This document shows, one piece after another, positions 5,754 through 14,137 of a stretch of DNA of 64,000 nucleotides (within the stretch, counting starts at the first letter, position 1; every line of letters starts with the position of its first letter). The translations under genes and the position numbers were made by a program. Below the pieces are notes generated by a model. It did not search any database. It was given only the letters and a program-made list of their open reading frames with translations, and was not told the DNA's origin. This stretch comes from Nitrospirota bacterium (GTDB lineage Bacteria > Nitrospirota > Thermodesulfovibrionia > Thermodesulfovibrionales > JdFR-88), in assembly GCA_021789555.1 (NCBI GenBank), contig JAJYJK010000002.1, positions 62,001-126,000 on the forward strand. The letters run 5' to 3'.

Positions 5754-8054
5754 ATGGTCCGGTCCGGATTATTATGTTTTGACGATGAAAAACGCTGTGT
5801 TTTCGCCAACCGCGCCGCATCCGAAATACTCGGCCTTAGCCCCGAGCAGCTCATCGGCAGGAATTCCGACGAACTGCTGAAACTCCAGGCGCTCCGGCAG
5901 GACAACCGGCCCGCGGACGCCGGCAGAAAAGACATCGCGGAAATATCCTTCGCCCTCTCGTTCGACAATGCGCCAAACGGCTCCGCCGCGGCCGGCGCCA
6001 TTACCATGCTTTCCGGCCTGGACCCCGAGGCAAGCGGGCTTGTAAGGGATTGCCGCGAATCCATGCTCCTTTTCCGGCGCGCCGAGAAGATAAGGATGGA
6101 GTGGGAAATAATAATGGACCGCATCGGAGACGCGGTCTTTCTCCTGGACAGAAACGATGTCGTAAACAGGTGCAATCATTCCGCCAAAAAGGTCCTCGAC
6201 AAGGATTTCTCCCGGATAATCGGCAGGAACATCTGGACACTTCTGCGGCAAAGCGGAATCGACGCGTTTCATGCAGATAAGATCGAGGTGCGTCAGGAAG
6301 ACACCGGCAAATGGTTTGTCCTGGATTCCTACGAGTTGGGGGAAAACGGCAAGGGGTCTTTAAAGACCGTATTGACCCTCTACGATTCCACGGCGCTGAA
6401 GAGAACCCACGAGCTGGAGGAGAAAAACGCCCTGATAAGCGAAAGCAGGGAAAAACTGAAGACCGCCCTCGACGGCATATCGGCCCTTATACAGAAGGTA
6501 GTGGAGGGAAAGGGGTTTAACGTCAGGTTCCAAAACCCTTACCTGCCCAAATGCTACGAGCTGCTCTCGTGCGAAAAGCAGGACTGCCCCTGTTACGGCG
6601 GGTCCGCGTCAAGGTGCTGGCAAATGTCGGACACGTGCACGTACTCCGGGGGGAGAGCCCTGAGGGCGTTTGCCGAAAAGATCATGAGCTGCAGCGAATG
6701 CACGGTTTTCAAGGAGGCCACAAAGGACCCCGTTTACCAGATAGGCGAGCATTTCAACAACATGATGCACCTGCTCGAGCTGAATCACGAGAAACTCGTC
6801 AGCGCCCATTATGAACTGGCGGAGAAGACCGCCCTTATAATCGAGAACACGGAAAAACTGGAGACCGCCCTCGCCGGCATATCGGACCTCATACAGAAGG
6901 TAGTGGAGGGAAAGGGGTTTAACGTCAGGTTCCAAAACCCTTACCTGCCCAAATGCTACGAGGTGCTTTCGTGCGAAAAGCAGGACTGCCCCTGTTACGG
7001 CGGGGGCCAGTCAAGATGCTGGCAGAAGGCGGGCACATATTGCGGCGGAAAGGTCCAGGGGGCGTTTGCCGAAAAGATAAAAAACTGCAGCGAATGCACG
7101 GTCTTCAAGGAGGCCACAAAAGACCCCATTTACGAGATAGGCGAGCACTTCAACAACATGATGCACCTGCTCGAACTCAACAACAGGAAACTCACCACGG
7201 CCTACGCAGAGCTGAAGAGCGCCCAGTCGAAGATATTGCAGCAGGAAAAAATGGCGGCAATAGGCCAGCTGGCGGCAGGCGTCGCCCACGAGATCAATAA
7301 CCCCATAGCGTTTGTGATGAGCAATTTGAATTCCCTCGGCAAATACGCCGCCAGGCTGAAGGACCATCTCCGGGCCCAGTCGGAGGCGCTGGAGGCGATA
7401 TCGCGGGGGCAGGACGCGTCCGCCGCCCTCGGCCGGGTCGACGAGGCCGCGCGCCTGACGAAGATAGACAGCGTCACAAGGGACATTGAAACGCTGATAA
7501 CGGAGTCCCTGGAGGGCACGGACCGCGTGCGCCAGATAGTGCAGAACCTGAAAAATTTCTCGCACGTGGACGAGTCCGAGTTCAAATACGCCGATATAAA
7601 CGCCGGCCTCTCCAGCACCATAAATATCGTATGGAACGAGCTTAAATACAAGGCGGACCTCGAAAAGGAATTAGGCGACATCCCGCTGATAAAATGCAAC
7701 CCCGGACAGCTCAATCAGGTATTTCTGAACCTCCTGGTAAACGCCGCCCAGGCGATGGAGAAACACGGGCGGCTCAAGGTCAGAAGCTGGCGCGCAGCGG
7801 AACATGTCTGTGTCTCCGTGTCCGACACCGGCTGCGGGATACCGCCTGAAAACATCCCGAGGATATTCGACCCCTTTTTTACGACGAAAGAGGTGGGCAA
7901 AGGGACCGGGCTGGGTCTTAGCATCGCTTACGACATCGTGAAAAAACACAGGGGAGAGATAACCGCGGAGAGCGTGGCGGGGGCCGGGACGACCTTTACC
8001 GTCAAGATACCTATCGGGCTCGAAGACCTGTCACAGGAGGCACATGATGAATGA
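5754..8054 (+). CDS. PAS-domain sensor histidine kinase with duplicated cysteine-rich domain
   Basis: 766 residues with no transmembrane segment, so probably cytoplasmic. Order: PAS (about 1-85), second PAS (about 115-215), short coiled coil, two near-identical cysteine-rich units (about 220-353 and 354-487), then HisKA with phospho-acceptor His in 'LAAGVAHEINNPIAFV' and HATPase with N box 'NQVFLNLLVNAAQ', G1 'DTGCGIP', F box and 'GKGTGLGLSIA'. Each Cys unit has the pattern KCYE(L/V)LSCEKQDCPCYGG, RCW, a further C, and CSECTVFKEA, then 'IGEHFNNMMHLLE'. Similar CW-type modules occur in signalling proteins of related bacteria and may bind metal or a redox group. The start has GGGAG eight bases upstream. 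The next gene, an HD-GYP response regulator, overlaps its end and is the likely partner. Confidence 0.88.
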   Translation: MVRSGLLCFDDEKRCVFANRAASEILGLSPEQLIGRNSDELLKLQALRQDNRPADAGRKDIAEISFALSFDNAPNGSAAAGAITMLSGLDPEASGLVRDCRESMLLFRRAEKIRMEWEIIMDRIGDAVFLLDRNDVVNRCNHSAKKVLDKDFSRIIGRNIWTLLRQSGIDAFHADKIEVRQEDTGKWFVLDSYELGENGKGSLKTVLTLYDSTALKRTHELEEKNALISESREKLKTALDGISALIQKVVEGKGFNVRFQNPYLPKCYELLSCEKQDCPCYGGSASRCWQMSDTCTYSGGRALRAFAEKIMSCSECTVFKEATKDPVYQIGEHFNNMMHLLELNHEKLVSAHYELAEKTALIIENTEKLETALAGISDLIQKVVEGKGFNVRFQNPYLPKCYEVLSCEKQDCPCYGGGQSRCWQKAGTYCGGKVQGAFAEKIKNCSECTVFKEATKDPIYEIGEHFNNMMHLLELNNRKLTTAYAELKSAQSKILQQEKMAAIGQLAAGVAHEINNPIAFVMSNLNSLGKYAARLKDHLRAQSEALEAISRGQDASAALGRVDEAARLTKIDSVTRDIETLITESLEGTDRVRQIVQNLKNFSHVDESEFKYADINAGLSSTINIVWNELKYKADLEKELGDIPLIKCNPGQLNQVFLNLLVNAAQAMEKHGRLKVRSWRAAEHVCVSVSDTGCGIPPENIPRIFDPFFTTKEVGKGTGLGLSIAYDIVKKHRGEITAESVAGAGTTFTVKIPIGLEDLSQEAHDE
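6411..7214 (+). repeat. Two tandem 402-bp units inside the histidine kinase gene
   Basis: Unit 1 spans about 6411-6812 and unit 2 about 6813-7214; the offset is exactly 402 bases (134 codons). Over the core (for example from 6491 and from 6893) the DNA is nearly identical, including long runs without mismatch, which indicates recent duplication or gene conversion rather than old domain repetition. A short third partial copy of the unit start follows at about 7211. Confidence 0.85.
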
Positions 8055-11827: not shown

Positions 11828-11858
11828 AAAAAGGGGCCGCCAAATGGCGGCCCCTTTT
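11828..11858 (-). terminator. Rho-independent terminator, probably bidirectional
   Basis: Stem GGGGCCGCC/GGCGGCCCC with a four-base loop, flanked by five A on one side and four T on the other. On the minus strand it ends with TTTTT. It closes the transcript that contains the peptide gene at 11942-12004. Confidence 0.85.
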
Positions 11859-11941
11859 CATAGCCCTCTACAATCCGGGGAAACCTCGCCCGTGCGAACC
11901 CCGCGTACTACTTTCCCTTGCTGTTTGCCCCTTGTCCCTCG

Positions 11942-12004
11942 TTAGCAGGGGTGCATGCAAACGGAGCCGATTACGCGCGGCCTTGCGTATCTCAGCTTTC
12001 TCAT
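11942..12004 (-). CDS. 20-aa peptide A, candidate modified-peptide precursor
   Basis: This complete small gene encodes MRKLRYARPRVIGSVCMHPC and stops with TAA. It has an excellent ribosome-binding site: AAAGGAGGG ending about eight bases before the ATG. A sister peptide at 13858-13932 shares KLRYARPRV, GSVC and HPC. The N-terminal 'YARPRV-G' resembles the YxxPxL/V motif with which several ribosomally made, post-translationally modified peptides bind a PqqD-like recognition element, and the C-terminal CxHPC offers residues for modification. That resemblance is an inference; no maturation enzyme lies in the window. It is 52 bases past the stop of the secreted protein gene at 12056 and before a terminator, so it is probably the last gene of that operon. 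It could instead be an unmodified regulatory peptide. Confidence 0.55.
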   Translation of the reverse strand: MRKLRYARPRVIGSVCMHPC

Positions 12005-12055
12005 ATCCCAGCCCTCCTTTCTCTCGAAGACTCCACCTTAACGCCTGCTGTCCAT

Positions 12056-12931
12056 TTAATAACGATACCCGGCCATCCAACTGTCCCAGGTGATATTCAC
12101 TCCTGTCAGATGGTCTCCGCTTTTTACGGTTATCGGGCAGTCCGGAAAACAATTGTACTTTCTCGGATCACCATATATGGACCAGCACGCGTTGGAAGTG
12201 GCAAATACCGCCCCGCCCCCGGACATGGTTTGCGAGCAGGTGGAAGAAGGTTCAGCGCCTGCCGTACCGCTTGCCGGGACGCCGCTTAAGGCGTAAATGT
12301 AATACGTCCCCGGATTCCTTAATATTATGGTGTAATTGCCGTTGGAATCGGTGGGCGCCTCGGCGGGGTATTTTATTCCCGGTTGGGGATAATAAACCCC
12401 GGGGTGTATAAGTGTCGTTGTGGCCATGACGAAGAATGGGCACGTCGGGCAGTTGCTGAAAACCTGTCCCGAGATGGCAATTGGCGCGGAATTGAATACC
12501 TGGGCGTATACCGTGCCGAGATTTATTGCCGAGCCGGCGGCAACGGTAATGGTGGAGGAACTGCCGGCCATATGCCACGTATAATCCCCGCTTCTGGGCG
12601 GGCCGTATGCCTGGGCCTGGGTGGGGATAGCAGAAAGCGGCGCCCTCCGGGTTATCCTGATGTGGTAAATCCCCTCGGGGACGCTCACCGAAATATTGCC
12701 GTTTGCATCGGACGGCCCGAGGATATACTGCGCGGCCCTGAAATATTTTTCCATGATCGGAGCCCCCTGCGGGTATGCATGGAGATAGACGTAGGCCCCG
12801 GCAAGCGGCTGGTTGACCCCGCTTCCGTTATAGATAAATGTCGCGGTAATAGTGCCGTTAGCCATTGCCGTTCCGGCAAAAAGCACTGTCGCAAGCGCCA
12901 GCATGACCAATACGATAAAAATTCTTTTCAC
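12056..12931 (-). CDS. Secreted protein with carboxypeptidase-regulatory-like beta-sandwich domains (A)
   Basis: 291 residues if translation begins at the GTG at 12931, which gives a clean signal peptide (VKRIFIVLVMLALATVLFAG, cleavage after AMA) and has AAGGAGGAAGG upstream; the frame is open to 12982. The mature protein has two prealbumin-like (carboxypeptidase regulatory) domains. The first, from about residue 27, contains 'PLAGAYVYLHAYP' and 'ILGPSDANGNISVSVPEG'. The second contains 'ISGQVFSNCPTCPFFV' and 'TDSNGNYTIILRNPGTYYIY'. Such domains are structural or carbohydrate-binding modules in exported proteins; no catalytic motif is seen. Paired cysteines suggest disulfides. It is a paralogue of the gene just upstream (12963-13775). 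Confidence 0.75.
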   Translation of the reverse strand: MKRIFIVLVMLALATVLFAGTAMANGTITATFIYNGSGVNQPLAGAYVYLHAYPQGAPIMEKYFRAAQYILGPSDANGNISVSVPEGIYHIRITRRAPLSAIPTQAQAYGPPRSGDYTWHMAGSSSTITVAAGSAINLGTVYAQVFNSAPIAISGQVFSNCPTCPFFVMATTTLIHPGVYYPQPGIKYPAEAPTDSNGNYTIILRNPGTYYIYALSGVPASGTAGAEPSSTCSQTMSGGGAVFATSNACWSIYGDPRKYNCFPDCPITVKSGDHLTGVNITWDSWMAGYRY

Positions 12932-12962
12932 GTTAATCGCCTTCCTCCTTTGGTGGCTGCTC

Positions 12963-13775
12963 TTAATAACCCGGGACAGCAATGTTTTCTCCGCTTACCG
13001 AAGAAGTAACGTTTACCGGGCAGTTGTAATAGAAATAATCGCCGCAGTCCTCGCATCCCACGCCCGTGGCGCATGTCGGATAGCCGCCCGGATAGTTGGT
13101 GTTAGCGAAATTCAGGTTCGGGCTCGCGTAGACGTAATAGGTCCCGGTATTTTTAATTGTGACGGTATAGTTTCCGTTAGCGTCGGTCCAGGCCGGGTAC
13201 TTTATGCTGCCGCATTCGTTGAAGGAATGGGCATAGCCCCAGTTGCCCGATTCGCAGGGCGCGGTCGTCGCCTTTACCGCCCAGCCCGCCAGAGGTTTGC
13301 CCGAAGCGCCCTTCACCGTCCCGGATATCGTGACAGGCTGGCCGTATACGGTGGTGTTTACCGTCCCCAGGGAAACCACTCCATTGGTAGTGATTGTTAT
13401 GGTCGGGGGACTGCCGGTGTAGTCCCAGGTATAATCCCCCGGATACGGTGGGCCCTCGTATGACGAGTAAGTGTATATCCCCGGATATGATAAGTAAGCC
13501 TCCCTCGCCGTGATCCGTACATAATAAGTGCCCTCGGGCACACTTACTGAAATATTTCCATTCGCATCGGATGGCCCAAGGATATAAGCGGCGTTCTGAT
13601 AGTATTGCTCCTGGGGTGGCAACTGGGCATTGCTCTGCAGATATACATAAGCGTTTGATAGCGGCTGGCCATTATAAAGGACAGTGGCCGTCAGCGTGCC
13701 GTTTGCCAATGCCGCCCCCGCGGAAAGCAGCATCGCCGGCATAAAGACGATAAAAATGTAAGGCCATTTTTTCAT
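12963..13775 (-). CDS. Secreted protein with carboxypeptidase-regulatory-like beta-sandwich domains (B)
   Basis: 270 residues. Signal peptide MKKWPYIFIVFMPAMLLSAG, cleaved near ALA. Two prealbumin-like domains: one with 'NGQPLSNAYVYLQSN', 'ILGPSDANGNISVSVPEG' and 'YYVRITAREAYL', the other with 'VTISGTVKGASGKPLAGW' and 'TDANGNYTVTIKNTGTYYVY'. The C-terminus is Cys-rich (CATGVGCEDCGDYFYYNC), probably disulfide-bonded. Paralogue A, 31 bases downstream, shares exact blocks such as ILGPSDANGNISVSVPEG, so the two arose by tandem duplication. It lies between a 24-aa peptide gene and paralogue A, apparently in one operon. A role at the cell surface or in the periplasm is likely; the ligand is unknown. 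Confidence 0.75.
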   Translation of the reverse strand: MKKWPYIFIVFMPAMLLSAGAALANGTLTATVLYNGQPLSNAYVYLQSNAQLPPQEQYYQNAAYILGPSDANGNISVSVPEGTYYVRITAREAYLSYPGIYTYSSYEGPPYPGDYTWDYTGSPPTITITTNGVVSLGTVNTTVYGQPVTISGTVKGASGKPLAGWAVKATTAPCESGNWGYAHSFNECGSIKYPAWTDANGNYTVTIKNTGTYYVYASPNLNFANTNYPGGYPTCATGVGCEDCGDYFYYNCPVNVTSSVSGENIAVPGY

Positions 13776-13857
13776 GATGTCATTTACCCCCCTTAGGGTG
13801 ACTTCTTGTCACCCGGTCCATTTGTCTAAAATGAGGGCGCAGCAGGCAACGCCCCTA

Positions 13858-13932
13858 CTATAACTTGCCCTGGCAGGGATGCACGCAAACGGAGCCGGCT
13901 ACGCGCGGCCTTGCGTATCTCAGCTTTTTCAT
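13858..13932 (-). CDS. 24-aa peptide B, candidate modified-peptide precursor
   Basis: This small gene is complete with start and stop (TAG). It encodes a peptide beginning MKKLRYARPRVAGSVCVHPC and ending QGKL. The ribosome-binding site AAGGAGG ends nine bases before the ATG. Compared with peptide A the changes are R2K, I12A and M17V, one silent change, and a four-residue extension; Cys16, His18, Pro19 and Cys20 are kept. It lies 82 bases upstream of secreted protein B and downstream of a good promoter match (14109-14137), so it is the first gene of the proposed operon. The 65-base block shared with peptide A includes the coding part but not the flanks beyond the start region. Confidence 0.55.
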   Translation of the reverse strand: MKKLRYARPRVAGSVCVHPCQGKL

Positions 13933-13974
13933 GTCCCATTCCTCCTTCCTTCCGGGAATTGAAGAGCCCCGCGG

Positions 13975-14040
13975 CTTGAGGGGACTAGTCCCCCCGCAAG
14001 TTTTTGTCCGCGAGGGATACGCTCGCTATCCATTTTTATT
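13975..14040. repeat. GGGGACTAGTCCCC palindrome plus GCAAG...ATACGCTCGCTATCC repeat, copy 2
   Basis: An imperfect palindrome (CTTG...GGGGACTAGTCCCC...CAAG, 13975-14000) resembles the perfect one at 10285-10316. It runs directly into GCAAG, a T-run, GTCCGCGAGGGATACGCTCG and CTATCCATTTTTATT, which matches copies 1 and 3. It lies in the leader of the peptide B operon. Confidence 0.6.
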
Positions 14041-14108
14041 TGCAACCCCAATTTCCCATCGCAACCGTAAGCAGCAATTCCCGTACCCGAAACTATGGAA
14101 ATTTAAAT

Positions 14109-14137
14109 AGAATACTAGACCCTCAGCTAAAATTCAA
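14109..14137 (-). promoter_or_regulatory. Predicted sigma-70 promoter of the peptide/secreted-protein operon
   Basis: On the minus strand TTGAAT (-35) is separated by 17 bases from TATTCT (-10). The transcript would start near 14102, giving a leader of about 170 bases before peptide B that contains repeat copy 2. The surrounding 14050-14200 stretch is AT-rich and holds no other gene. Confidence 0.45.

Follow-up and report, generated by a model that had tools for sequence, protein, structure and literature searches.

The closest described system is GeoRSP, for which NCBIfam holds a PqqD family (TIGR04302), a radical SAM/SPASM family (TIGR04303) and a SPASM family (TIGR04304). The same enzymes are encoded in the source genome of the locus reported here and in the peptide-bearing operons described below. 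The GeoRSP models that we saw do not extend to peptide copies scattered through a genome beside secreted partners: NCBIfam models the enzymes, and no model of a target peptide was found there; an earlier suggestion of such a peptide is not excluded. A search of the open-access literature found no paper naming GeoRSP in this sense, only an unrelated usage concerning elephants. What is added here is the assignment of a very likely target peptide family to these known but uncharacterised enzymes.

Two cofactor pathways show a similar arrangement. Mycofactocin biosynthesis (MftA/MftB/MftC) shares with GeoRSP a short peptide with conserved C-terminal residues, a PqqD-like chaperone and a radical SAM/SPASM enzyme, and MftC decarboxylates the C-terminal Tyr of its precursor (PMC8728441). 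However, the source radical SAM enzyme scores only 165.4 bits against the MftC model (cut-off of 265, not met), the GeoRSP peptides end in HPC rather than Val-Tyr and are encoded by up to 16 dispersed precursor genes, and MftD/E/F were not recognised in the GeoRSP operons that were read. The PQQ pathway (PqqA/PqqD/PqqE) likewise combines a PqqD-type chaperone, a SPASM enzyme and a precursor of about 20 residues, and PqqE (6c8v) is the best solved-structure match of the maturase. The PqqE model nevertheless gives only 134.2 bits, short of its cut-off of 381, the Glu/Tyr core is absent and the other operon genes differ. Haem enzymes of the AhbD/NirJ type also act on carboxylate side chains.

The leader resembles that of lasso peptides, the pathway RREs of which bind a [Y/W]xxPx[L/V/I/F/A] motif (PMC13381572); the YARPRV of the peptides described here fits this motif, but a lasso cyclase and B2 protease were not recognised in the GeoRSP operons that were read, and the core is very short and ends in Cys. 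In RiPP mining of anaerobes, Geobacter is mentioned for lasso peptides only. The geopeptide maturase (TIGR04280) is also a peptide-modifying radical SAM family with a Geobacter-derived name, but it belongs to a different system, with a best source-genome match of 57.1 bits against a cut-off of 400.

Layout of the locus and its secreted partners

The locus lies within a window of 64,000 nucleotides (the whole stretch of DNA that was analysed) and comprises the following features.

14109..14137, minus strand: weak sigma-70-like promoter, TTGAAT-17-TATTCT, read from the sequence
13858..13932, minus strand: micropeptide 1, MKKLRYARPRVAGSVCVHPCQGKL, putative GeoRSP-type precursor, with a strong Shine-Dalgarno site ggaaggaaggagg
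12963..13775, minus strand: secreted protein B, 270 residues, with a signal-peptide-like N-terminus and beta-sandwich domains
12056..12931, minus strand: secreted protein A, paralogue of B, 291 residues, GTG start, with a signal-peptide-like N-terminus
11942..12004, minus strand: micropeptide 2, MRKLRYARPRVIGSVCMHPC, putative GeoRSP-type precursor, with a strong Shine-Dalgarno site agaaaggaggg
11828..11858, minus strand: intrinsic terminator hairpin followed by T5, assessed by folding energy against shuffles

The sequence-only reading had described these features as an operon with a consensus-like promoter, excellent Shine-Dalgarno sites and a strong terminator. The terminator held, as it lies inside a hairpin of -29.6 kcal/mol (z -4.8; 0/200 shuffles as good), and so did the Shine-Dalgarno sites, both of which were read directly and are strong. 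The promoter is weak: it matches 8/12 consensus bases and was not listed by a scan with a threshold of 9/12, so the earlier label was generous. Peptide 1, B, A and peptide 2 lie on the same strand with small gaps between them, from which a single transcript running from 14.1 to 11.83 kb is inferred in the absence of transcript data. Micropeptide 1 carries an unusual QGKL tail behind HPC. An Rfam search of the region gave no match.

A and B had also been described as exported paralogues resembling carboxypeptidase regulatory domains. The paralogy held (46% identity), and the signal-peptide-like N-termini of both proteins are consistent with export. B lies above the gathering score of CarboxypepD_reg (PF13620; 42.8 bits against 32.3) and matches DUF4198 (43 bits), whereas A, at 19.7 bits, lies below the same gathering score of 32.3. 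A fold search with B returned low-TM matches only, to Gram-positive pilin-type beta-sandwich domains, and the model of B has a pTM of 0.54, with the order between domains uncertain. Several A/B homologues of about 530-560 residues (L045:8885-10489, L048:8051-9703 and L051:7057-8655) are fused to N-terminal repeats that have the look of NHL/propeller repeats (LxWGSxGxGxGQF).

Peptide copies and the wider family

The KLRYARPRV pattern alone, with at most two mismatches, was found eight times in the source genome and seven times in a sister genome, and a reversed control pattern gave no matches in either. Within the loci retrieved from the two genomes, 28 copies were gathered using the N-terminal expression only, without reference to the C-terminus; all 28 continue to an HPC or QPC end, and the stop codon directly follows the Cys in 27, the exception being micropeptide 1. 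Copies share 81% identity over the 45-base core, compared with the random level of 27-30% in the flanks, and pN/pS across the copies is 0.22. The two micro-ORFs are therefore genuine genes, far beyond chance, although their translation has not been measured. This bears out the claim of two real peptide genes, which would have been undermined by a lack of conservation in relatives; instead, the copies are under amino-acid selection. It would also have been weakened by blocks without an intact frame, of which there is one among the 28 (G000:C101:6896-6956). Seven A residues behind the ATG of this copy place it out of frame with the conserved part YVRPLIVGSVCVHPC, and a decayed gene or an assembly error is possible.

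When species-level genomes were scanned with a gapped DNA pattern, at least 112 stretches matched; by a stricter expression, all but one of 112 contain a peptide. A Dyadobacter match (L104) fits the pattern only, lacks the peptide and was set aside as chance. Peptide-bearing records come from Geobacter, Pelotalea, Geomobilimonas, Desulfuromonas, Malonomonas, other Desulfobacterota and Nitrospirota. The family consists of previously unmodelled peptides of 18-24 residues with the consensus MKK-YxKPxVVGSxxVHPC-stop; the usual forms are MKKYMKPKVVGSSNVHPC and MKKRTYIKPRVVGSADVHPC, with MKKYMKPRVVGSSNVHPC and micropeptide 2 as further examples, and NCBIfam and Pfam scans of the peptides matched no model. 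Shine-Dalgarno-like sites lie 5' of 116/127 copies, and YxxPx[V/I] is present in all 127 core copies. Part of this family-wide conservation is ascertainment, since the search patterns fixed several residues, including the Y and P of this motif for distant copies. The source and sister copy set is free of this effect, as is the Val before HPC, which was not fixed by the pattern and is present in 124/127 copies with all four Val codons in use. Both Ser codon families and all Pro, Gly and Val codons are used among the copies. Only the last Cys is invariant; the position two before His is N, S, C, D or V.

Partner genes were classified at 120 peptide places. The neighbour is a multihaem protein at 46 of them, an A/B-type protein at 22 and the GeoRSP radical SAM/SPASM genes at another 22; at the remaining 30 the neighbours are of other kinds or none is clear. 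The multihaem neighbour is the upstream gene in 42 of the 46 cases, with a median gap of 64 bases. These proteins are up to about 2,270 residues long, with as many as 51 CxxCH motifs (some are cut at contig ends), and many end in a conserved CSKCH..H...LPRL.(V/I)TNCLD..H........CH......WN..TPW domain, which co-occurs with the maturase (p=1e-14). In the genus of the window this domain is absent and A/B are multiplied instead. The hosts of these scattered copies are iron-reducing bacteria and their relatives.

Two further contexts were observed. A 78 kb viral-collection contig (L171, IMGVR_UViG_3300002231_000542) carries MKKYMKPKVVGSSSVHPC at 6695-6751 with a good Shine-Dalgarno site, close to two ORFs of which one resembles a phage radical SAM gene and the other a ribonucleotide reductase gene, and might encode a phage-borne GeoRSP substrate. 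Five loci (L107, L111, L142, L145 and L159) carry MKRYQKPKVVGSSNVHPC or close forms between HD-domain-like and BI-1-like membrane protein genes; the two genomes with this context that were tested (G342 and G345) gave no strong GeoRSP maturase match.

GeoRSP enzymes and their co-occurrence with the peptides

The sequence-only reading had inferred that a PqqD-like domain binds the leader and had called for a search for nearby radical SAM or PqqD genes. None adjoins the two peptides of the window; a GeoRSP set is encoded on another contig of the source genome (C1), which supports the inference. There, the radical SAM/SPASM protein (L197:14084-15082) scores 547.5 bits against TIGR04303 (cut-off of 400) and has a CNFKCKHC motif (CxxxCxxC) and a C-terminal Cys set, and the adjoining PqqD protein (L197:13783-14094) scores 123.8 bits against TIGR04302 (cut-off of 100). 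The best TIGR04304 match is full length (E 1e-60), at 205.2 bits against a cut-off of 300. After its own model, the maturase scores best against AhbD, NirJ2, TIGR04053 and the mycofactocin maturase. The likeness of the radical SAM enzyme to viperins in PADLOC is that of radical SAM proteins in general and was discarded.

Elsewhere, a peptide gene lies within the maturase operon itself, although this does not apply to the window's own copies (gene calls in the fetched loci were mechanical). In Desulfuromonadales the operon has PhnD-like, TPR-like, YedE (TIGR04112) and GeoRSP PqqD genes, followed by the GeoRSP radical SAM gene, the peptide, the GeoRSP SPASM gene and a cysteine-desulfurase-like gene, so that the peptide lies 3' of PqqD and between the radical SAM and SPASM genes. 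The peptide directly follows the radical SAM gene in G081. In three Nitrospirota genomes (G004, G006 and G014) it lies near the head of a related operon encoding CarboxypepD_reg proteins, a NosD-like beta-helix protein and OpuAC-like, PhnD-like, ResB-like and YedE proteins, followed by an ArsP-type permease (in most), PqqD, radical SAM and SPASM. The source genome has most of this set, split over two places on contig C1, which also carries five peptide copies.

Co-occurrence was assessed in 296 evenly drawn Nitrospirota genomes. The GeoRSP radical SAM model exceeded its cut-off in 17, and the C-terminal peptide pattern matched in 20, among them all 17 maturase genomes (Fisher p=6e-25; 8e-14 counted by genera). 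The three genomes with a peptide match and no maturase comprise one chance match and two incomplete MAGs (74% and 83% completeness); the match in G177 ends in TGG without a stop and was rejected as chance. A profile of A/B, built partly from genomes within the sample, matched in 17/17 maturase genomes and 2/279 others, one of them with the peptide (p=9e-26). As the genomes are related, there are fewer independent events than these p-values imply; the pattern spans several families. Among 49 further peptide genomes from the DNA pattern scan (50 minus one chance match), the maturase was found in 42; seven lack a strong match, and two of these have a different gene context. G008 was rejected as an exception, since its peptide lies on a 5.4-kb contig (C156, L056) that is 99.9% identical over its full length to C15 of the sister genome G002 and probably reflects cross-contamination between MAGs. 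A/B-type proteins and the cytochrome end domain also occur in G080 (Nitrospirota), where the maturase and peptide went undetected.

Proposed mechanism and rival explanations

The micro-ORFs very likely encode RiPP-type precursor peptides of the GeoRSP system (probability of roughly 0.85), an assignment that is based on operon membership, co-occurrence and the motif. The same three lines support leader binding by a PqqD-like domain, without binding data, and the earlier interpretation as a whole is supported in the absence of modification, translation or binding data. Points against the assignment include the distance of the maturase from the peptides of the window, the source copy with an ATG out of frame, the seven of 49 peptide genomes without a strong maturase match and the source SPASM protein, which falls below its curated cut-off.

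In the proposed mechanism, the N-terminal KxxxYxRPxV part would be a leader held by the GeoRSP PqqD-type chaperone (an RRE) and delivered to the radical SAM enzyme, which together with the extra SPASM protein would modify the C-terminal core, (G)S-x-x-V-H-P-C. The enzymes would be encoded once per genome, here on a different contig, and would work in trans for many scattered peptide genes. Each of these genes would stand beside those secreted proteins that it serves: A and B here, and giant multihaem cytochromes in Geobacter-type bacteria. The modified Cys core proposed from sequence alone remains a supported inference, its modification, chemistry and function being unproven. Chemistry at the terminal Cys, for instance an MftC-like oxidative decarboxylation or a thioether link, is inferred from the near-obligate C-terminal Cys and from the scores of the maturase near AhbD, NirJ2 and MftC. 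Given such chemistry, micropeptide 1 would be a poor substrate or need trimming; its tail argues that a C-terminal carboxylate is not strictly required. Once exported, the product would serve the co-encoded extracellular proteins as a small ligand or cofactor derived from the peptide, which they would use or to which they would be joined. This role is suggested by the many copies next to giant multihaem cytochromes or beta-sandwich proteins, and the client-linked copies might mean that use of the product scales with the secreted proteins, but the export and ligand step taken alone is an inference to which we give slightly less than even weight.

The main rival concerns function only, as it shares the GeoRSP substrate assignment: the modified CxHPC/NVHPC peptide could be an exported metallophore or metal chaperone that loads the secreted proteins with metal or provides them with it. 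This remains possible. It is favoured by the His and Cys of the core, the DUF4198 match of B, the NosD-like beta-helix protein, cupin and PhnD/OpuAC-like binding proteins of the operon, and its ArsP-type permease, which comes close to the Cu/Zn efflux family SO_0444 without reaching the cut-off (112 bits). However, invariance is limited to the last Cys, with N, S, C, D or V tolerated two before His, and the neighbours of the copies are multihaem cytochromes, not metal-uptake genes. A role as a secreted signal or as an antibacterial peptide, with the neighbouring secreted proteins as mere passengers, would account for the multiple gene copies and the exporter-like permease, but is unlikely: unlike in bacteriocins, the core is almost invariant over copies and phyla, the operons read showed neither an immunity gene nor a peptidase-containing exporter, and all 17 maturase genomes also have the A/B family.

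Two further rivals dispense with modification. Unmodified attenuator leader peptides, stalling at HPC-stop and regulating the secreted protein genes, would fit the short ORFs with strong Shine-Dalgarno sites, their invariant end and their frequent position directly 5' of a secreted protein gene. Against this, the peptides at cytochrome loci lie downstream of their partner in 42 cases, peptide 2 is the last gene before the terminator, the flanks are not conserved, the region has no Rfam match, and the co-occurrence with the PqqD/radical SAM system is near perfect; we therefore regard attenuation as very improbable. Near-identical blocks scattered through one genome could also point to a conserved DNA or RNA element (an insertion scar or binding site) with an incidental frame, but the pN/pS of 0.22, the variation of codons under fixed residues over two phyla and the Shine-Dalgarno sites in 116/127 copies leave almost no room for this explanation.

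We retain the reading of the micropeptides as very likely GeoRSP substrates. By supplying a substrate for enzymes that are named in databases, it makes their chemistry directly testable in vitro. A bolder reading, for which the evidence falls a little short of an even case, is that one central radical SAM system converts a ribosomally made peptide into a covalent ligand or cofactor of extracellular proteins, and that each client (multihaem cytochromes, beta-sandwich proteins and beta-helix surface proteins) shares its transcript with a precursor gene. If true, this cofactor system would be dispersed over the genome and linked to its clients, and it might take part in extracellular electron transfer. 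The linkage to multihaem cytochromes and A/B proteins in electroactive bacteria suggests that electron transfer at the surface of these organisms may need a peptide-derived component that has not been recognised.
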